Assembly (NCBI GenBank): GCA_038049695.1
Contig: CP142454.1
Coordinates: forward strand, 15,384,501-15,448,500
Direction of reading: 5' to 3'
From: Cinnamomum chago
Taxonomy: Eukaryota; Streptophyta; Magnoliopsida; Laurales; Lauraceae
Length of the DNA: 64,000 nt
A program made the position numbers and the translations under genes. The notes under the pieces are model-generated. The model did no database searches and was not told where the DNA came from. It saw nothing but the letters and a program-made list of their open reading frames with translations. Positions within the stretch are counted from its first letter, which is position 1; every line of letters begins with the position of its first letter. Positions 486-48,055 of this stretch are shown one piece after another.

Positions 486-3400
486 GACCTGGGGCACCAG
501 CAGTTTTTAATTGTGTAAGTTTGTCATTCAAACCTAGATATAATGTTTGTATCTTTCATTATGCTGTGATTTTAAACAAAAAATCAATTTTCATTTTTAT
601 GTGATTTTAAACAAACAAACAATTTTCATTTCTCTGTGGGTGTCTGAAGTGAGAGATGCTGCTAGCACTTGTGGTGTGTGGAGCAAAACATGCTTTTTGG
701 GGCTCACTTCTCATTAGACTGTTGAATCAAAACCATCTCCTCTGATTGCCAGCTGCCCAAGCATCACATTGGTTGTAGTAACATCACAGATGAATTGATG
801 CATTTTTGCTGCCTGTTTAGATATCACAGGGCCACAAAGGTCAATTCAGTCCAATGCTCAGAGGTAATTTGGGTGAATGGTTTTGATCCAATGGTGTACC
901 TCGGTAAGAAATTGTTTCCATAAGAAAGATATGCTTGATATTGCTGCAAGTTGTTATGATGTCATCAATAATGTACAATGATCCAATCTTGCGTGTCAGG
1001 TCATGTGTAAGCTTAAATGGGATCCCTGTGAGATCCCTCTATGTGGTCCAATCCAAGTGGGATCACACATATTCTGAGGGGGAGTTGTATGGGAAATCTC
1101 ATCACAGATTAGGGATATCTCAAAATAACTCTGCTGTATTTTACTTACTTTCATGGATTTAAAGGTCTGAACGTGACTATACTCAGTCTGGCTGGCCCAG
1201 TTGCAACCTTGTTCGTCTAGCAGTAGAACAAAAGCCAGTTAATTTTTAATAGAGATAGTCAGGATATGACATTAGTTATCTGGTTTATGAGTTCTCTGTG
1301 ACATTAGGATAAAAGTATATGCATTCAAAATCATGTGCATCTAGATTTTTTTTTTTGAATTTTAAGCCAACCCAAGGTTGATGGTATGAAGCTCTGTTAT
1401 GATGACAACATGTTTGTAGATTATACTTTGCCTTGGGTGAACCCATTGATTATGGACTTCACCATTAGTTGGATGCCATGAGGCCTGTGACTACATGCCT
1501 AAAATTCTGTTTGAAGGATTCCTTCTGTATGAGCTAACCTTTGAAGTTTTTAGTACAGTTACAGGATGCAACAGTTATAACGAAGTAGTTATTGAATGTT
1601 TGCATAATGAGTTCAGCCAAAAACCATGGAGGCCACTATGATTCAGTGGCTATGATCAATTATGCCATGGCACTCTTCTCTCACTGGACCACTCCTTGAT
1701 TGTGGGATGAGTCCACCTTCTTTATGACAGTCCCTTATATCACCTAGATCAAAGTGATTCTTTGATATGTCCTGTTGGTTGAACTTAGCTTCGCCCAAAG
1801 ACTGAGAATCTGAGATCACTATTCACTATGGGGATAGGTCTTTCTTCAGTTTTGTGAGTATTACTCTTAGCTGAGAGATATTTGGGCCAGTTGTAATTTA
1901 CAAAGGTGGTTGTTTTGGCCCACAATTCACAGGTTCAACAATAAGAGACACGATTGTTGTAAGTTGATTCTGCTGAGCAGAACTGGGAAATTGAAGGACA
2001 GTTTTTTAGTTGATCTGTGCTTTTAGCAATTTGGGGTTGAGCATATACATCTCACTTAGCATAGAGATATTTGGGCCATTTGTAATTTACAACGGTGGTT
2101 GTTTTGATCCAACTGTCTACCTTGGGGAGAAGTAGGCCCACAATTCACAGGTTCAACATTAAGAGACACGATTGTTGTAAGTTGATTCTGCTGAGTAGAA
2201 CTGGGAAATTGAAGGACAGTTTTTTAGTTGATCTGTGCGTTTAACAATTTGGGGTTAAGCATATACATCTCACTTGGGTTTGTCTTTTTGTTGTTGCCAT
2301 CATTGTTGCTGTTATTATGAATATTATTATTAATAAAGAAGGATAAATACGGGTCTTTTTTTTTCAATGAAATTAAGTCGTAATTCTCTTGCAGGTGGTT
2401 GAAATCGGAAAAGGTAGCAAGGTTAAGTATGAGCTGGACAAGATAAGTGGCCTTATAAAAGTATGAACTTCTAGTTCTCTTGTCTTGCTCCTTTTCATGT
2501 CATTTAGTATCTATATTTACAGGCTTAAGTTCTCTCTTTTATTTTTTGGATTGGTAACAAGGGACGATTTTAAGTTCTCAATCCAGAACTCAGTTTTTAA
2601 ACTGATGATAATGATTGAGTTTTCAATAGCAAGTTTCCTCATTAACTCTTCCTCCAATATCTTATAACTCTTTTTTTTTTTTTGTTACCCTGTAAATTTT
2701 GTGCCACTTGTCCAATTGGTCTTTTTTGGGCAGAATATTATTCTGTGCCACTTGTCCACTTGTGCATCTTTTCATCAATAGAAGTCTACCTTGAACTCTT
2801 TTTGGGTGGTCAGAAATGTGCCTCTGGATTGTGTGGATGTAATGTGTGCAGCCCTGTGGGTGTTCTAACACCATGTGGGGCTTATCCATTGCCCGTTGTC
2901 ATGTGGACATGTGGGGCCTATCCATCAGTTGCACCTCGTAAAAACCAAGGCGTTTTGGCCTCTTGAACGTGGATATCATGTTGGGATCTATCTCTAAGTG
3001 CAGACAAAATCTCATTATGGAAAGTTATCAAACCCAATCCATTTGGGTCTCTCTCTCAGCTTAGGATGGAACTGGAGATTTTCCCTTGGGGTTGCCACTG
3101 TCTTGCATTCAACAAAGTGAGGTAGAAAATGAGAATGCACATATATCCAATAATGTATCCCTATTCCCTAATATATTGATTGGTCAAAAAATGAAGGCAC
3201 AGGAACATAATACTATTAATACAAAATAAAGGAAAAAAGAGTACCGACTATTTCTACCAAGGGTCTATTTAGTTCAGTAAGTGATTCTATGAACAATTTT
3301 TTTTTACATTCCATCCAAAGTCGGGTCTGTAGTTCAGTGCTCTATGCCATCTTATGCTCTGGTTGGGTCAGGTTTACCAATGAGCAGGAGTAAACTTGAT

Positions 3401-6381
3401 CTAATCCCACAATCCAACTTGAAGCTGGCCTGAACCTGACCCATATTTAATGCGGGTCGGATTTGATCTTGAATTTCTGACCTGCTCTTATATACAGACT
3501 TTTCATGTGAGGCATTTTCTCCAATATACAAAATGACTTTTAAGGATCTCTAATGCCTTACCTAATTCCCAATGCGTTGTCCTTGTTAACACCCTTTCCC
3601 AAAAGTTAAGCCCCTTGTGGAACCCACTTGGTTGCATGCCAATCATGGGAGGATAGTGTGATGGAAAGGTCTACTTGTGTACATGATTTTGGGTAAAAAT
3701 CATTTCAATCAGATCATCACAGCCATTGATTTAGGGACCTTGGAGTTTAATGGTTTCTTAACCAATAATGAGTTCAATTTGGATTAGTATCAAATTAGGG
3801 TGGGTGCCAGTTCGTAGGTGTTAAGTGAGGGGGTTGGATTGATCACAAGGGTCCCACTTGGTGGTCAACACAAGCAGTGAGAGATGTTGCTCAGGAAAGA
3901 GTTTTGCATATGTATAATATACATATATGTTAGATTATATATAAATGGAAAACAAAGATGAGGAAGGTGTTTTTTTTTTAATCAATGCTGATTATAAGAT
4001 GACTGATGTGTGGAGATTATGAAAACAATTTCAGATAGATCGTGTCCTATACTCATCCGTTGTTTATCCCCACAACTATGGTTTCATCCCTCGAACAATC
4101 TGTGAAGACAGCGATCCCATGGATGTGCTGGTATTAATGCAGGTACTTTGATTTTTCATTAGATCATTCATTTATAATAACAAAATTTTATTTTTGGAGT
4201 AAATCTTCCAAATCTTTCTTTTTACAGGCAAATCTTCTAAATCTTTGTTTAATTTCCTGGTTTAGGAACCTGTAATATCTGGCTGTTTTTTGCGTGCCCG
4301 GGCTATTGGATTGATGCCTATGATTGATCAGGTAGCTTCTCCTCAAGGAGCATTGTTAAGCTTATATCAAAACACTTTGCATTCCAATCAGTTATATTCT
4401 ATGAGTAATACTCTATTATCATATTTTCATTTTCACACATTGTTTATTTTAGTGGTCTTACCATACTTTTCTCTTTTGGTATTGGAATAGAGGTCACTGA
4501 GACTGTTTCCCCCCCCTCTTTGTAGGGTGAGAAAGATGATAAGATAATAGCAGTTTGTGCTGATGATCCTGAGTTCCGTCATTATAAAGATATTAAGGAA
4601 CTTCCTCCCCATCGCCTTGCTGAGATCCGCCGCTTTTTCGAAGACTGTATCCACCCATTTAACTTGAAGCAGTTTCTCCTCTTTTTGGAAGTTCAAACTT
4701 TATTTTAATTTTTTTGGAAATTTAAGCAGTTTCTCTTGATGACTGTTACCTAATTTCAGTTCATCTTTTATGCTTTTCATTGTGTATTTCTTCAATTCTC
4801 ATTCTTGTTCTTCTTCATAGCCACAATGAAACACTGAGATGGCCAAAACATTTCATCCAGAGTAGTAATGAAATGGAGTTCAAAACAAGGTAGAGGACTA
4901 TTGTCCCCTTGCCAACTAGTGCACCTACTATCCATGTTTGTTGCTGATAAATGTGACTCATGTCCAAGCTCCATGCATGTTCCTTAAGCGGTTGGGTCAT
5001 TTTATTTTTCTTTTATATGGCAGTTTCTTAATATTTTTATGGTTTTATATCAGGCTATTGCCATGATTCATCATCAATCTCAATTTGCAGAAGCATGATA
5101 AAAATGTTGCAGAAACTGTGCAAAAGTGTCTCACGTAGGGCCACCACATTAGTTTATTTCTAACAGGGTTGACTTCAGTATCATTAAACAGTTTCACTGC
5201 CACTTATTTCCTTGACTGTTTACTAACAAAAGATAAGAAGAACGAGAACAAAGAGGTTGCTGTAAATGACTTCCTACCAGCAGATGCTGCCATCAAGGCA
5301 ATCGAGTATTCCATGTGAGTTCACTACTGTCAAATTTGTTCATTCACTGGTTTTTATTGCCTCCGGAGGGCTTAATTCTCATCTACTATTTGCTGGACCT
5401 CTTTTCTAGTTTCTGGTTTTTAAGGATGTGCACATCATTATTCTTCCCAGACTCAACAGAATAAGCAGATCTATTATGATTTAGTTGTCCAGCAAGGTCC
5501 CAGCAGGTCTTTCAGTTAAGGCAATACTTTCCACAATGTGAACGATAGAGCTTATCTTTATCCTAGGCAGGCATTTCAGCACAAATATAGCCATCACCAG
5601 TACAGCCTCGTCCTCAACCTCCTCACTGTATTCTCCATAAAAAATACTAGTTAAAGCTGATTGGTCAGGAAAAGCTACAGTAGCCTCCAAAATTAGAATC
5701 ATCTTTTGCTCTGCTTTTATGGTCTCCAATGGTGGAAACGGATCTAGACTAAAAAGCCTAGGCACAAATAGGCTCAGTCAGAATTTAAGCCCCATGTAAC
5801 TTGTAGATATGTTGTGTTTCCAGTTCTTCTGTTCATACAAGAAGAACGTAAAGGCCTATAAAGATGTGCAATTATCTCCTAAGATTGATCATCCTGTTGA
5901 AACTGTGCAATATAGCTCACAAGCTGATTAAATAGGCATTGTTCTTTTTATGTGCATTCAACACGGATGCTGAATCCTACAATTCCTTGGCTTTTTTACA
6001 ATATTGAAAGATGATAAAAAAAATATTCAAGGACACACCCAAGCATTACATGCAGGTATATTCAAAACTATATAAAAAAAAAACATTTTTTTCCTTTGAT
6101 TGTAATAAAATGACATTATATCATTAACTTGGGGTCCCCATAGCTACCAGTTCTGCACTTGTACAGGTGGAAAAAAAAAAAGATTCATGTAAAAAGAAGG
6201 AAGAAATATTTTGTTTGAACTCTTTAAGCCAAACCCAGATTGATGGGATAAGGTTTTAACCATTTATTTAGTGCGCTCTGTTTTTATGTGCTTTTGGTGC
6301 AGGGATCTCTATGCATCTTATATGTGCTTTTGGTGCAGGGATCTCTATGCATCTTATATTGTGGAGAGCTTGAGGCAGTGA
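486..6381 (+). CDS. PPA: Soluble inorganic pyrophosphatase (family I), 5' end outside window
   Basis: Hydrolyses pyrophosphate to two phosphates with Mg2+, in the cytosol for most plant PPa proteins. Exons read from sequence: 486-514, 2395-2460, 4035-4142, 4266-4331, 4526-4646, 5233-5314 and 6339-6381 (TGA 6379-6381); every intron is GT..AG and all phases join. The translation runs [26 protein letters not shown], then [11 protein letters not shown]. The family signature [10 protein letters not shown] at 4110-4135 carries the metal-binding aspartates. After that come [32 protein letters not shown] and the C-terminus [13 protein letters not shown]. The first exon (roughly 50 residues and the start codon) must lie left of base 1, since 486 opens in phase 1. 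Oddity: the start of the last exon and its splice acceptor are tandemly duplicated (see 6285-6356), so a form 12 residues longer is possible. Isoform and location cannot be fixed without the N-terminus. Confidence 0.95.
1874..2276. repeat. Tandem duplication, about 190-bp unit, in pyrophosphatase intron
   Basis: Two adjacent copies (about 1874-2062 and 2063-2276) share long near-identical stretches, from agatatttgggcca to acatctcactt. The second copy holds about 26 extra bases (around 2108-2135). Identity is high, so the duplication looks fairly recent. No coding content. Confidence 0.85.
6285..6356 (+). repeat. 36-bp perfect tandem duplication covering a splice acceptor
   Basis: Units 6285-6320 and 6321-6356 are identical. 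Each holds the end of the last pyrophosphatase intron (ttttggtgcag) and the first coding bases of the last exon (gatctctatgcatctta). AG acceptors therefore end at 6302 and 6338, exactly 36 bases apart. The frame stays open from the upstream one, adding [12 protein letters not shown] before the normal C-terminus. Confidence 0.95.
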
Positions 6382-6383
6382 TG

Positions 6384-6545
6384 TTCTACGTAAACTGTGA
6401 ATTCATGGGCAAACAGACTTCTCGCTACTTGCCTTTATATATATTACAAATTCAGACAGACTTAATGTGACTTCCCTTTCTATATTCTACTGTAAATTCA
6501 CAGGCAAACAGACTTCTTGCAACTTGCGTTTCTGTGTGCTTCTAT
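6384..6545 (+). repeat. Diverged duplication in pyrophosphatase 3' UTR
   Basis: A segment of about 60 bases just after the stop codon (ttctacgtaaactgtgaatt.. gggcaaacagacttct..) recurs about 100 bases later (6484-6545: ttctactgtaaattc.. aggcaaacagacttctt..). The copies are diverged, so this is older than the 36-bp duplication beside it. Confidence 0.7.
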
Positions 6546-16000: not shown

Positions 16001-19000
16001 GTAAAACACATAGTATATTTGATTTAAATAGATCTAATTGAAAAGGCTTGTTTCATAAAACATGCAATAAGAGCTTATGACAGGGGCGTTTGTTGTCTTT
16101 TCTTAAAAGATTTAGGTTCTTATGAAATTTGATTGCCAGCTTCATCAAAGTGTTTGGTTATTGTTAGTCTTACTTTTCTTTAGGTTGTGAGGCAATCTAG
16201 ACTTTTAAGTGATGTTTGGGATTTTAAGTGTGAGATTTTCCAATCAGGAAGAAATAAACCCAGAAATTTCTTGACTACAAGCAAACCCAGAAATTTCTAT
16301 ATTAAGACAAAGGCAAGAGATTCTAAGAGTGAGATTTTAAGTTAAACATATGTTTTGATCAGTTTTAAGTCAAATAGACCGATGCAAAGCCAATGGGCCG
16401 ATGTAGTCAAAAGTGTCAAACCCATGGCCCATGTGTGGGAACTAAAGGTGTCTAGAATTTTGTTTCTTATTTTACTTCCTTAATCAGTTGTAATTAGGAT
16501 TAGCTTTCTAATTCTAGTAGGAGTCTTTCTTTAGTTTCCTAGTTTGATTAAGAGTCTTGGATTTTAGGGTTTATTTTTCTATGTATATGAGCATTGTAAG
16601 ACATTACAGGCTGAGTTGAAGATTAATAAAAATTATTGTTCATGGGTTTATTTTCTCTTTGAGGCTCATTTCCCTCTTTTGAGTATCATGGAGACATCCT
16701 TCCATGCTTTATCTCTTTGATCCAAATCCTTTTATAGGGTTTTAGACACAGGAAATAGACTTGCCAAATGGCGCCTAATATTAATTTGTAGTAGTGGAAG
16801 AGCTTAGAACTAACAAAGATCTATGCTAAACAGACTTGGATCAATAATAGTTGAATAACACGCCAGCAAAAAAATAATAGTTGAATAGACACAGGAAATA
16901 GACTTGTCAAACGGCGCCTAATATTAATTTGTAGTAGTGGAAGAGCTTAGAACTAACAAACATCTACGCTAAACAGACTTGGATCAATAATAGTCGAATA
17001 ACATGCCAGCCAAAAAAATGATAGTTGAATAACAAGAAAAACCGTCTGCTCCAGATTTTATTGCTGTCAGAGAAAGGGACCCTAGAAACCTGATACAGTG
17101 TACGCTGTTTACACAAATATGATGTGCCATAAGGGACCATTAGAATCCAGAGACCTGATGTAGTATGAGCTGACTTTGCTGTAAAAAAGTGTGGTCCTCT
17201 TTGTGCGACTTGGTTACACCAATAATCACTGTGTGGTATGGGTTGGGAATGTCTCATACTGGATGAGCTTTGGGTGAATCTCCTTGTTGGATGACTATCG
17301 ATTCAAGGCCCCTAAAAATGAACATAGTAAACTAAGGGGATTCATTCTAATTGAATCTCTCTCCATCTAGGGTTAGTGTGGGGGTTTGATTTTCTAGTCA
17401 GCCATCCATATAATTTATTACATTATGAGTTTATGACTTCATGAAGATTGGGTGTGTTGCACTATTAATTTCATTCACCAAAAAAGGTGGTCTGTCTGTG
17501 TGTGTTTCTTTTATGAAGTTATATTCTGTAGATAGTGTTGCGATATTGAAACACTTTTGAGATGATGAATGTTAGCTGGAAAAGATTAGTATTGCACAAG
17601 CATTATTACATCAAGTGATGCAGTTTAAGACATAGGGCCACCCAGATCTGGCCCAGGACACAGGCCCAACCGCCCAAGAATCCATACATTCAACTAGAGA
17701 TGTCAAATGGGCCGGGCCGGGCCGGGCCGAGTCCGCCAGTCAACGGGCCGTGTGGGCCGAGGAGGCTGGGCCCATTGGCCCGGGCCCGCCAGGCACGTGG
17801 GCTGCCTTTGAGGCCCGCCAGGCACGACCCGCCTGGCCCGCCCAAAAGTGACTTTTTTTAACAAAATTGTCCATTTTAACCCCCCCCCCCCCCCCCAAAC
17901 AGCCATAAAACGGTCATATAAGGGGTATTTTGTGTCATTTTTAATTTTACAAAGTCTATAATACTCTAACCATCCTATTCTTTTTCTAAATTTATTAGTG
18001 TTATTTATACTACTCTAAGTCTCTAACCCTCGAATATTTCTAAGTAAGAAGTGTATATCGTGACAAATTGCCTAAAAGGCCATGCTCAAGCTTGAGTACA
18101 CACATTTTTCGTGATCTTGGTTTTTTTTTTTTACCTTTTTTGCTAAGAAGCTCTCCGGGCTGGACTAATCCCTTCGGACCTAAAGAGAAGCCGGGTAAAA
18201 CCCCGACTCTCAAGTGATAGGACTAGTGGACTCAACCTTCATTATGATCTTGTTGAATTTTATTTCTTGATGCCTAGTGGTGGTGCCCTTTGACTCATGG
18301 AAGCATATCTAATCTAGGTGTAGGAGTCTATCAGACAAAATTAGATACACTATTGGAGTTTCTTGCTCCTGATTTCTAATTTTCTATCATTAGTGTTGTG
18401 GGAACCTCCCTGGAAGATGCAGAAATATTTAATACTATTACTACAATTGGCCCTTTACAGAAAAGATAAAAGGTACCTTTTGGTCTTCTCCCTTTCTAGA
18501 CACCTCTTGCTAGTCATTGGTCTTTTTATATCATTATAATTTTGAAAGGCTTGCCGGCTGTGTTGGGTAGTAGTGTTATTTCTTAAAAAATGAACAAAAA
18601 AAAAAAAAAACAGGCCCGCTAACCCGCCCAGCCCGGCCCGCTCCAGCCCGGCCCGTTTGACATCTCTACATTCAACATTAACCTAAATTTGAAAAGGGGC
18701 CCACAAGTCACTCCTGCTTAATTCGTAACTTAAGTGACATTACTAGTTTCAACTTGCAAGTCAATTAAAGTATTAGATTTTATTATATTTTTTTAATCGG
18801 TTGGGGTAGGAGTCGGTCAGAATCCCAAATGCTTCAGACTGGCAATTTTCATTAGTTAAAATATGTCAGAATGACATGCAGTTTATTATTATTATTATTA
18901 AAGAAAGTAGGTGCATTTTATGAGTTATTATTCAGTTACCTATCCAATAAGTGCAAGATCATGAACTGTGACATGATTTCAAGAAGTTATAGCCTGTTTA

Positions 19001-44111: not shown

Positions 44112-47100
44112 CAGGGCCGGCTCACCCCATAAGCTGCTGAAGCAGGTGGTGGGGGCCTCACCATGAGGGGGGCCTCAAAATTTTGTAAATCAGGCTAAGG
44201 CAAATCCCAATTTTCAAGCCTCATTCATCATTATCTACCACTTAACGGTAAATAAGTTAACCAACCAAAAGCCTAATTCATCATTCTCTACCAACGGTAA
44301 ATACATTAACCATTAACCAACCAACGCCCAATCGAAAGAAAGCATTAACCCCCAGCTCTTCGTTTTCCACGGACTGCCCAACCTACGGTGCAACTGCAAC
44401 TCTTCGTTTTCCACAGACTCCCCAACCCACTCTGCTCTATTTATCTCCTCCACCCAAACCCAAAACCCATTGTTTTATTCTCCATAATCTAGCAAACAAC
44501 AACAAAAAAAAAAAAAAAAAAATTGTGTCCCCCAATTCCAGCCGCCCCCCAATCGAGCTCTTCCATCCATACCAAATCCGATCTCAGCCCCTCTTCTCTG
44601 ATTGAATCAAGCAGAAAAAAAGAAAGAAAAAAGCAAAGAAGAAAAAGCAGCAGCGAGGCACCGAGGTGGAGAAGGTACCTGGCACTAGACCATCATCGCA
44701 TCAGCCCCTCTTCTCTTCTCAGCCGATCTCAGCCAATCTCAGGCCCTCTTCTCTTCTCTTCTCATCATCTCCCCGATCTCAGACTCAGCCCCTCCAGACA
44801 GCAGGTAGCAGTCAGTCCCTCTTCTCTGATTGATTCATTGAATCAAACTGAAAAAAAAAAAAAAAAGAAAGGAAAGAAGAAGAAGAAGCACCGCCGAAGA
44901 AGCACCGCCTGGGAGTTCCATCCATTTGACATAGAGCATCAGAAGAGCAGAACCCTTTAATAAGGGTTTTAACTTTTAAGCTTTGACCTCATTCTATGCA
45001 CAGTACAGAACACGTTTACTGTTTACACGAGTGGGCTGTGGGCCGAGTGGTGGAGTGGGCTGTGGGCAAGTGGCAGGCTGGCAGCTGCATCTTAGCATCA
45101 TCATCACTTATTCACTTCATTGGAGTGGGCTTACATCAGTAAGACAGTAACAAACATCACGAGGGCCTGGTTTGTAGATCCGGACTTGCCGACTTGGACT
45201 GCGCTTGCTCTCTTGGAACAGGTTCTTGGCTTTTTTTGTTCTTCTTTTTTTTTAATCAAATCTGCATCTAATATACTGTTACAATATAGGTGATATTTAT
45301 CTATTTGTTATTACTATGAAACGTGAGTTTGAATCTGGTGCTCAAAAACGTCAACGGAAAAAAAAAGAACAAGAGTTGATTCAATCTCAAAAAGATGCGA
45401 TGTATAAATTTATTAAAAGAAATAAAGAAGATGAGATAGTGAACCCACCTATAGAGAATGAACAGCTAGAGGGTAATGACGAACATAAATTAGATGATAT
45501 TGAAACCATTAGAGAAAACGATGAAATTGAACATGAACTCGATGATAATGAAAGAATTAGACAAAATGATAAAATTGAACATGTTCTTCCTAGCATAGAA
45601 CCTAATGAAAGTGCTGAGCTGAATGAGAATAGGAAAATAAACTTAAACTCAGCGGAAGTTTCGTCATTTGAGGAGAACCCCGGTGAACCATCTAACACTC
45701 TACTTGCAGATATATATGACCCGGGACAATGGAATAATGTTGATATAAAACTAAGAGATTTATTAGTAGAAAAAGGTCCAGTTAGGGAAATCGGTTTAAA
45801 ATATCCAGTCGGTGAAAAGTCAAGGAGATTTTCAATTAGACATTATACTCAAATAGCGCCAAATGGAGAAAAGTTTGATAGAAAATGGTTGGTATATTCA
45901 AAACATTGTGATAAGGTTTTTTGTTTCTGCTGCAAGTTATTTTCAAAGTCTAAGAAAAGTCAATTGAGTAATGAAGGATGCAAAGATTGGAGAAATATTA
46001 GTCTTAAACTAAAACGTCATGAGAACTCAACTGGACATGCTAAAAACATGCTTTTGTGGATTGATTTAAAACAAAGGTTATTAAATAATAAGACAATTGA
46101 TAAAGATATCCAAGAACAAATTGATAAGGAAAAAAAACATTGGAAAAATGTACTAGTAAGAATTATTGCTGTGATTAAAACCATTTCTAAGAATAACATG
46201 GCATTTCGTGGAAGCAATGAGAAGCTTTATGAAGAGAATAATGGGATTTTCTTAAGTATTATTGAAATGATTGCTGAATTCGATCTAGTAATGCAAGAAC
46301 ATGTTCGGCGTATCAAACAAGGTGTAATTAATAATCACTATCTTGGGCACATAATCCAAAATGAATTGATACAATTGTTGGCAACTGAAGTAAGAAATTT
46401 CATAATTACAAAACTTCGAGAAGCAAAATACTTTTCTGTTATCCTTGATTGCACTCCGGATATAAGTCATCATGAACAAATGACCCTCGTTTTACGATTT
46501 GTAAATGTTTCAATAAGCCCAGTACAAATTGAAGAATATTTTTTGGATTTTATAAAAGTTGATGATACATCAGGAAAAGGACTTTTTGAGGAACTCATCA
46601 AAGTTTTAGAACTATTTAATCTAGATATTAATGATGTAAGAGGGCAGGGATATGACAATGGATCGAATATGAAAGGTAAGCAACAAGGTGTACAAAAACG
46701 ATTGTTAGATTTGAATCCTAGAGCATTTTATACACCTTGTGGATGTCATAGTCTTAACTTAGTTATTAGTGATATGGCAAGCTCTTGTATAAAAGCGGTG
46801 TCTTTTTTTGGAGTAGTCCAACGTATCTATTGTTTATTTTCTTCATCAACTAAGCGGTGGAAAATCTTTACAGACAATGTGAAAAAGCTTACTGTTAAGA
46901 CATTATCAATAACACGTTGGGAGAGTCGAGAAGAAAGTGTTAGAGCAATAAGGTATCAAGCTCCAGAAATAAGAGATGCATTACTTGAGTTAGCAAATAG
47001 TAGTGACGATCCAAAAGTAAAAAGTGAAGCTGAAAGTTTAGCTATACATGATATAGGAAATTATGAGTTTTTATTAGGTATGGTTATTTGGTATGAAATA

Positions 47101-48055
47101 TTATTTTCTGTTAATTTGGTTAGTAAAAGTTTACAATCTAAAAAAATGCATATTGATGGTGCCATTAGTGAATTAAAAGGTCTTGTTACATTCTTTGAAA
47201 AGTTTAGAGAAAATGGATTTGAGAAATCTATAGATATTGCAAAATGTATAGCACGTGAAATGAATGTTGAACCAATATTTCATGAAAGACGTATAATCCG
47301 AAGGAAAAAACAATTTGATGAGAGTGCCGATAACGAGGTGACTCAATCCCCAGAAGAGTCTTTTAGAACTACTTATTTTTTATGTATTGTGGATCAAGCA
47401 CTTTCATCTATTAGAAATAGGTTTGAACAACTTAAGAGCTACGAAGAAATGTTTGGATTTTTATTTGATATCAAAAGGTTGAAGTTATTAGATGATGATG
47501 ATTTGAAACAGAGTTGTCTTAATCTTGAGCAATTCCTAAAACATGGGGAGCATTCTGACATTGAAGGTATAGACTTGTTTGGAGAACTAAAAGTATTAAG
47601 AGAAGCTTTGCCAACAGGAACTCAAAGTGCACTTCAAGTATTAGATTATTTAAATAAAATTGAGTCTTTTCCAAATTCATATATTTCTTATAGAATACTA
47701 TTAACAGTACCTGTTACGGTTGCTTCCGCCGAAAGAAGTTTCTCGAAATTAAAGTTAATAAAATCTTATCTGCGATCAACTATGTCACAAGAGAGATTAA
47801 GCGGGTTAGCCATTTTATCTATTGAGAAGAAAATTTTGGAAAACCTTGAATACAAAAACTTGATCAATAAATTTGCATCACAAAAGGCAAGAAAGGTTAA
47901 ATTCACTTAAAAAAATGAATCCCTTAACAAGTTCCAAAAAAAAAAAAAACTAAAAAAGAAAAAACAAATTTTTTGTACTTTTGCCTGGAGCCACAAATTT
48001 TGGGGCCTCATTTATACTTTCGACTGGGGCCACATATTGTCTTGAGACGGCCCTG
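44112..48055 (+). mobile_element. Complete autonomous-looking hAT DNA transposon
   Basis: Ends cagggccggctca (left) and cagggccgtctca (right, reverse complement) match at 12 of 13. The host octamer gacctgaa is duplicated perfectly at 44104-44111 and 48056-48063. Subterminal gggggcctca words occur at both ends. The 3.9-kb element holds one uninterrupted transposase frame (45316-47910). Its long leader (44112-45315) is built of internal duplications, among them ctcttcgttttccac at 44359 and 44401. A possible leader intron runs 45222-45289 (gttctt..atatag). An intact frame plus a perfect duplication indicates a recent insertion. Confidence 0.95.
45316..47910 (+). CDS. hAT transposase, TTF zinc finger/ZMYM1-like type
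   Basis: 864 residues with no introns or stops. Cut-and-paste transposase acting in the nucleus on the ends of its own element. Order: a Lys/Glu-rich, charged N-terminus (1-140); a TTF-type zinc finger (about 165-245; C203, C206, H235, H241); and an RNase H-like catalytic core. Candidate catalytic acids are D378 in ILDCTPD, D447 in GYDNGSN, and E806 in ASAERSFSKLK. The hAT-specific CxCH (475-478) and TRW (533-535) motifs are also present. The C-terminal dimerisation block (about 780-850) reads YRILLTVPVTVASAERSF and onward to LAILSIE. Every block expected of a working enzyme is present. The same family has been co-opted as host genes elsewhere (ZMYM1-like). Here the TIRs and target duplication show that it is still a transposon. 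Confidence 0.94.
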   Translation: MKREFESGAQKRQRKKKEQELIQSQKDAMYKFIKRNKEDEIVNPPIENEQLEGNDEHKLDDIETIRENDEIEHELDDNERIRQNDKIEHVLPSIEPNESAELNENRKINLNSAEVSSFEENPGEPSNTLLADIYDPGQWNNVDIKLRDLLVEKGPVREIGLKYPVGEKSRRFSIRHYTQIAPNGEKFDRKWLVYSKHCDKVFCFCCKLFSKSKKSQLSNEGCKDWRNISLKLKRHENSTGHAKNMLLWIDLKQRLLNNKTIDKDIQEQIDKEKKHWKNVLVRIIAVIKTISKNNMAFRGSNEKLYEENNGIFLSIIEMIAEFDLVMQEHVRRIKQGVINNHYLGHIIQNELIQLLATEVRNFIITKLREAKYFSVILDCTPDISHHEQMTLVLRFVNVSISPVQIEEYFLDFIKVDDTSGKGLFEELIKVLELFNLDINDVRGQGYDNGSNMKGKQQGVQKRLLDLNPRAFYTPCGCHSLNLVISDMASSCIKAVSFFGVVQRIYCLFSSSTKRWKIFTDNVKKLTVKTLSITRWESREESVRAIRYQAPEIRDALLELANSSDDPKVKSEAESLAIHDIGNYEFLLGMVIWYEILFSVNLVSKSLQSKKMHIDGAISELKGLVTFFEKFRENGFEKSIDIAKCIAREMNVEPIFHERRIIRRKKQFDESADNEVTQSPEESFRTTYFLCIVDQALSSIRNRFEQLKSYEEMFGFLFDIKRLKLLDDDDLKQSCLNLEQFLKHGEHSDIEGIDLFGELKVLREALPTGTQSALQVLDYLNKIESFPNSYISYRILLTVPVTVASAERSFSKLKLIKSYLRSTMSQERLSGLAILSIEKKILENLEYKNLINKFASQKARKVKFT

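Follow-up and report, generated by a model that had tools for sequence, protein, structure and literature searches.

The window analysed here is a 64-kb stretch (G000:C4:15384501-15448500) of a 1.06-Gb genome of 14 contigs, and at its left edge lies a gene for a soluble inorganic pyrophosphatase, whose structure and best matches suggest a flowering plant. The product scores 190.4 bits against PF00719 in a short form and 190.1 bits in a long form, the two being described below, with a curated cut-off of 23.5. Its best solved relatives are 4lug (E 7.3e-98), 5ls0 (E 2e-96) and 6mt1 (E 3.1e-95), which we take to be plant enzymes and whose alignments cover 165-169 of the 170 residues. These matches place the gene among the soluble family I inorganic pyrophosphatases of plant type, with pyrophosphate hydrolysis as the predicted activity.

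The compared part of the gene consists of eight exons, open throughout, in a structure common to its paralogs (five genes, short form), and all of its donors and acceptors are GT and AG. The first of these exons (LNERILSS...HDLEI) lies about 0.7 kb upstream of the window start, and the others follow on the forward strand at 486-514 (second), 2395-2460 (third), 4035-4142 (fourth), 4266-4331 (fifth), 4526-4646 (sixth) and 5233-5314 (seventh), the fourth containing a DSDPMDVL stretch that is presumably the metal-binding signature of the family. The last intron starts with the donor GTGAGT at 5315 and extends over 988 nt to the first of two acceptor AGs (5315-6302), and the last coding exon of the short form occupies 6339-6381, with the stop TGA at 6379-6381. 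The idea that the gene was already a pseudogene before the duplication described below was rejected, given the lack of any stop or frame break, the GT and AG at all its splice sites in the compared part and a dN to the paralogs of 0.087-0.109, in a test where the NG86 dS is saturated for all four gene-paralog pairs and which says nothing on the duplication event itself.

Other repeats occur in and around the gene. A 29-nt tandem repeat (4183-4250; 2.4 copies, 80%) contains the acceptor-like TTTTTACAG near the acceptor of the exon at 4266, on its upstream side, and a 43-nt direct repeat (6394-6436 and 6489-6531, 86% identical) is found just 3' of the stop, likely in the 3' UTR. Farther along the window, a 143-bp unit is present in two copies with 94% matches (16743-17031), and an unbroken frame of 864 amino acids with DUF4371 and hAT dimerisation domains (45316-47910) represents a hAT-type transposase-like gene.

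At the end of the last intron, the 3' splice site is present in two copies. Direct comparison shows that positions 6285-6320 and 6321-6356 are identical 36-mers, with 39 nt matching when the sequence is shifted by 36, and Tandem Repeats Finder reports the same repeat (6285-6359, period 36, 100% match), in agreement with the first-pass annotation of this DNA, which had described a perfect 36-bp tandem copy of the 3' splice site together with 18 coding bases. On the forward strand, the first copy (6285-6320) is composed of the last 18 nt of the intron (6285-6302; TATGTGCTTTTGGTGCAG, with CAG at its end) and 18 nt from the start of the last exon (6303-6320), and the second copy (6321-6356) is followed by TAT at 6357-6359. 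TAT also starts the unit, which gives 3 nt of junction homology such as slippage or end joining would leave. The unit occurs exactly twice in the 1.06-Gb genome, both times at 6285-6356, and its reversed pattern has no occurrence in the whole genome, so that a chance repeat was rejected.

The upstream acceptor (AG at 6301-6302) would open an exon from 6303, and the downstream one (AG at 6337-6338) an exon from 6339, which would give the form of ancestral length. Both joins from the donor at 5315 are in frame and end at the same stop (6379-6381), the acceptors being 36 nt apart, which bears out the earlier claim that each yields a full-length protein. The upstream join adds 12 residues near the C-terminus, including two cysteines, a tryptophan and a phenylalanine. 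In the predicted long form, 19 residues would replace the tail IVESLRQ after an unchanged ...SMDLYASY, and since the first DLYASY stands at its ancestral place after SM, the change would amount to a tail that is 12 residues longer and not to a break in the fold; the catalytic core of the long form should therefore be intact, and the PF00719 score is nearly the same for both forms.

A search of the genome, which scores its best candidates only, returned four other intact genes of the family, named L039 (C4), L040 (C6), L041 (C7) and L042 (C2), giving at least five intact soluble pyrophosphatase genes. All four paralogs have a single acceptor at the homologous place, where the start of the exon occurs once and leads straight to the stop, and the compared part measures 585 nt in all five genes (short form in the gene studied here), with equal exon lengths and no indel. 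This length has been kept across considerable divergence, as the NG86 method returned a dS for two of the ten pairs (0.770 and 0.824) and found the other eight saturated, with dN from 0.046 to 0.109 among the five genes. The single acceptor in every paralog and the constant length indicate that one acceptor is the ancestral state and that the duplication is derived, which makes the predicted long form an exception to a length kept in five genes. Among the 169 positions compared, six sites that do not vary across the other five sequences carry a private change in this gene, against none in L039, one in L040, two in L041, one in L042 and five in the 4lug sequence. The description of the product as an otherwise strongly conserved enzyme is thus appropriate for the family but less so for this copy, with its six private changes against zero to two in the paralogs, and the duplication was perhaps tolerated through the faster evolution of this gene copy.

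The family has further features. L040 has a GC-AG intron after its fifth exon (donor GCACAT), the corresponding donor being GT in the other four genes, and L039, on the minus strand at 2.29 Mb of C4, contains a 43-nt tandem duplication of 98% identity, from 6610 in the locus as given, which in gene orientation corresponds to a derived position of about 2806-2891, in the intron preceding the exon at 3004. Two degenerate copies returned by the genome search, L043 (C6, 61.96 Mb) and L044 (C8, 54.23 Mb), probably descend from one broken ancestor, as their similarity stops at a shared odd sequence, CALNKNIQNRK. Moreover, eight examined dispersed stretches (L022-L029, on C1, C2, C4, C8 and C10) carry pieces of L042, introns included: positions 1308-2002 of that locus are found in six of the eight and a shorter part, from 1586 or 1609, in the other two, and the segment from 2724 to 3010 or 3124 is found in all eight at 92.3-99.3% identity, the intervening part being absent. 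These stretches are mutually 95.95-99.03% alike wherever two of them align over more than 800 nt, as 24 of the 28 pairs do, and it looks as if a repeat had captured part of a pyrophosphatase gene and spread it at the DNA level.

From -20 to +3 (23 bases) the two acceptors of the duplicated site differ at -19 only, with T upstream and A downstream. A PWM trained on 34 acceptors of five genes, from which the two tested sites were left out, scores the upstream acceptor at 14.48 and the downstream one at 13.75, a gap of 0.7 bit, both values being inflated by the four homologous last-intron acceptors among the 34 training sites. When left out in turn, the 34 acceptors score from -0.90 to 12.33 (median 6.39), all below both copies, and the best of the 62 other AGs in the last intron reaches 8.27. 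The single difference and the two scores make this a pair of strong and nearly equal acceptors. A third acceptor, TTTAG ending at 6271, was also considered and rejected, as it scores 3.83, below 25 of the 34 true acceptors, and its shift of 31 nt would break the frame. A stronger pyrimidine run had been attributed to the upstream copy, and this holds over -40 to -4 only, where the T fraction is 0.57 upstream and 0.41 downstream; nearer to the acceptors the tracts are nearly the same, with 0.59 vs 0.53 for T and 0.65 vs 0.59 for pyrimidines over -20 to -4, and 0.65 for pyrimidines at both sites over -23 to -4.

Five branch-point-like motifs, defined by consensus match only, are found between 6201 and 6338. 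Their candidate adenines are A 6243 (59 nt to the upstream AG and 95 nt to the downstream AG), A 6259 in TTAAC (6256-6260, forward strand; 43 and 79 nt), A 6266 in TTTAT (36 and 72 nt), A 6286 in TTTAT (16 and 52 nt) and A 6320 in CTTAT (6317-6321, forward strand), which precedes the downstream AG only, by 18 nt, and is exon sequence that the duplication moved in front of that AG. In the predicted fold, the pyrimidine tract is more open in copy 2 than in copy 1 for all three stretches folded (0.67 vs 0.34, 0.36, 0.62), which would favour the downstream site, and both acceptor AGs are mostly paired.

Taken as a whole, the explanation that we consider probable is that one small 36-bp tandem duplication doubled the last intron's 3' splice site in one of at least five intact pyrophosphatase genes, that both acceptors are used with the upstream one somewhat favoured, and that the change is near-neutral. 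The duplication may have arisen by replication slippage or by repair of a staggered break, and its outcome is a pair of in-frame acceptors of nearly equal strength, separated by 36 nt. The upstream site retains the entire ancestral upstream context and the downstream site the ancestral exon, and the latter now has a branch-point-like CTTAT 18 nt upstream that may serve it. The spliceosome would then use both acceptors, with some preference for the upstream one.

The published data considered here on acceptor choice come from humans and yeasts, and none of them is a plant test of copied acceptors. A designed human library reports that equal tandem 3' sites, unlike 5' sites, are chosen without preference for the first one, and that an optimal branch point in general has no effect on the choice between tandem acceptors (PMC6783452), and a human catalogue reports that upstream minor acceptors are more used even at similar strength (PMC8055015). 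In fission yeast a longer branch-point spacing is described as weakening splicing, and budding yeast is cited in the same source as preferring the nearer acceptor (PMC9508853). The first-pass annotation had argued that the upstream site is met first and that the long form could therefore be common; this argument is weak, as the two human studies point in opposite directions, and the downstream copy has its own branch-point-like CTTAT as well as a tract predicted to be more open. From this conflicting human and yeast evidence, both sites are expected, with moderate confidence, to be in use with some upstream bias, and such double use is plausible.

A first alternative is near-exclusive use of the upstream acceptor, under which the gene would make the long form only and the mutation would be a coding change and not a source of alternative splicing. 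The upstream AG keeps its full upstream context, including the branch-point-like TTAAC at a distance of 43 nt, just 12 nt separate A 6259 from the AG at 6271, a spacing at which AGs are reportedly bypassed, and both the upstream preference in the human catalogue and the spacing effect in fission yeast point the same way. We nevertheless regard exclusive upstream use as rather unlikely, since the downstream site comes close to the upstream one in strength and is preceded, at 18 nt, by a branch-point-like sequence, the library study reports no order preference, and the long form breaks the length common to all five genes. That fixed tail length suggests selection for length, and together with the more open tract predicted for copy 2 it favours the opposite alternative, in which the downstream acceptor is used almost alone, the protein is unchanged and the intron has simply gained 36 nt; this is more doubtful still, given that the upstream site is complete and scores 0.7 bit higher. 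Little credence is given to the birth of two isoforms in one step, with both acceptors used at comparable levels and the 12 residues changing assembly, stability or partner. An assembly artefact or misjoined haplotype pair, with a single copy in the plant, is the least credible alternative, as the perfect identity of the copies would fit it, but the 3-nt junction homology resembles that of a real mutation, the repeat is not of low complexity and occurs nowhere else, and its 72 nt are shorter than common read lengths; that an assembly error or a minority haplotype may lie behind the repeat nevertheless counts against the preferred explanation.

Under the preferred explanation, with both acceptors in use, the duplicated allele is probably near-neutral, as the paralogs encode the same enzyme, and the duplication was most likely tolerated on account of these paralogs and of the position of the insert in the tail. 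The function of soluble pyrophosphatases is likely buffered. In Arabidopsis, quadruple mutants of the soluble pyrophosphatases are cited as having a normal phenotype, which fits this tolerance, but the same source also reports that the quadruple mutant has larger seeds and that loss of two pyrophosphatases along with the vacuolar pump has near-lethal effects, both of which count against neutrality (PMC7266078).

The age of the event is loosely bounded by the copies themselves. Their 36 bases being identical, divergence has a 95% upper bound of 0.080 (0.084 corrected). At assumed substitution rates of 1.3e-8 to 1.5e-9 per site per year the bound corresponds to 3-28 million years, a span that would become longer under purifying selection on the exon half. 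The very recent event proposed earlier is thus possible, but the 36 identical bases are compatible with an older one. Small tandem duplications that double a 3' splice site are an ordinary and already known kind of mutation. According to a review, a study in rice found inaccurate repair of breaks to be the likely source of insertions of 10-1000 bp, including tandem duplications (PMC7407515), and work in mouse and human cells has established a mechanism by which breaks give rise to small tandem duplications (PMC8355091). In 153,378 bases, made up of the window and 12 loci after leaving out loci that overlap these or are copies of one repeat, three perfect two-copy duplications with a period of 18-200 passed a complexity filter, the 36-bp one being alone in having a period of at least 25, and six places have two copies with a period of 25-80 and at least 85% identity, a rough base rate in which both counts include the 36-bp duplication itself. 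Over a billion bases, such duplications should strike many acceptors.

With 18 identical bases on each side, the acceptor pair constitutes a clean natural experiment on order preference in plant spliceosomes; the human results on acceptor order disagree (PMC6783452 vs PMC8055015). It also illustrates that a protein whose length is otherwise fixed can gain an in-frame segment through a single small duplication, although the expected effect on enzyme biology is small, as the same activity is encoded by other genes. If two isoforms were indeed made at comparable levels, one of at least five pyrophosphatases might have gained a distinct assembly, stability or partner, and the gene would provide a natural plant test of acceptor order when two sites are equal. 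As regards the first-pass annotation, its observation is confirmed and its interpretation partly supported, the arguments from strength, order and age being weaker than claimed.

Tandem acceptors of the NAGNAG type are described in plants, and the literature search found no direct plant precedent for a duplicated acceptor. Here two intact 3' splice sites lie a multiple of three apart (36 nt), and both score above 34 other acceptors. Of the two GTs between the acceptor AGs, the one at 6324 leaves 15 nt and the one at 6333 leaves 6 nt, in either case too short for an intron; an intron gain as known from potato was rejected on this ground, as no donor between the AGs leaves room for an intron (15 nt at most, from 6324), and in the lack of a usable donor only a choice of acceptor is possible. 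The potato gene in question, the RdRp gene PGSC0003DMG402000361, is the closest precedent found, and in the published account a new intron arose there when a segment spanning an intron-exon boundary was duplicated in tandem (Ma et al. 2016, PMC4974935). Both cases concern a plant gene in which an intron end, CAG and an exon start were duplicated and the splice signals came from the parent intron, but the potato duplication is described with a cryptic GTAAG donor, a new intron and 106 supporting RNA reads, whereas the present case is read from the DNA alone. The pair also resembles the tandem alternative 3' splice sites of the human catalogue (PMC8055015) in having two close in-frame acceptors at one exon, and differs from those catalogued in that its acceptors are 36 nt apart, that the whole site was copied instead of a nearby AG arising by chance, and that it is known from sequence. 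Likewise, novel intron positions in Drosophila are attributed to short tandem duplications that doubled a splice motif (PMC2891723); there, exonic proto-splice sites gave rise to new introns, whereas here an existing acceptor was doubled.
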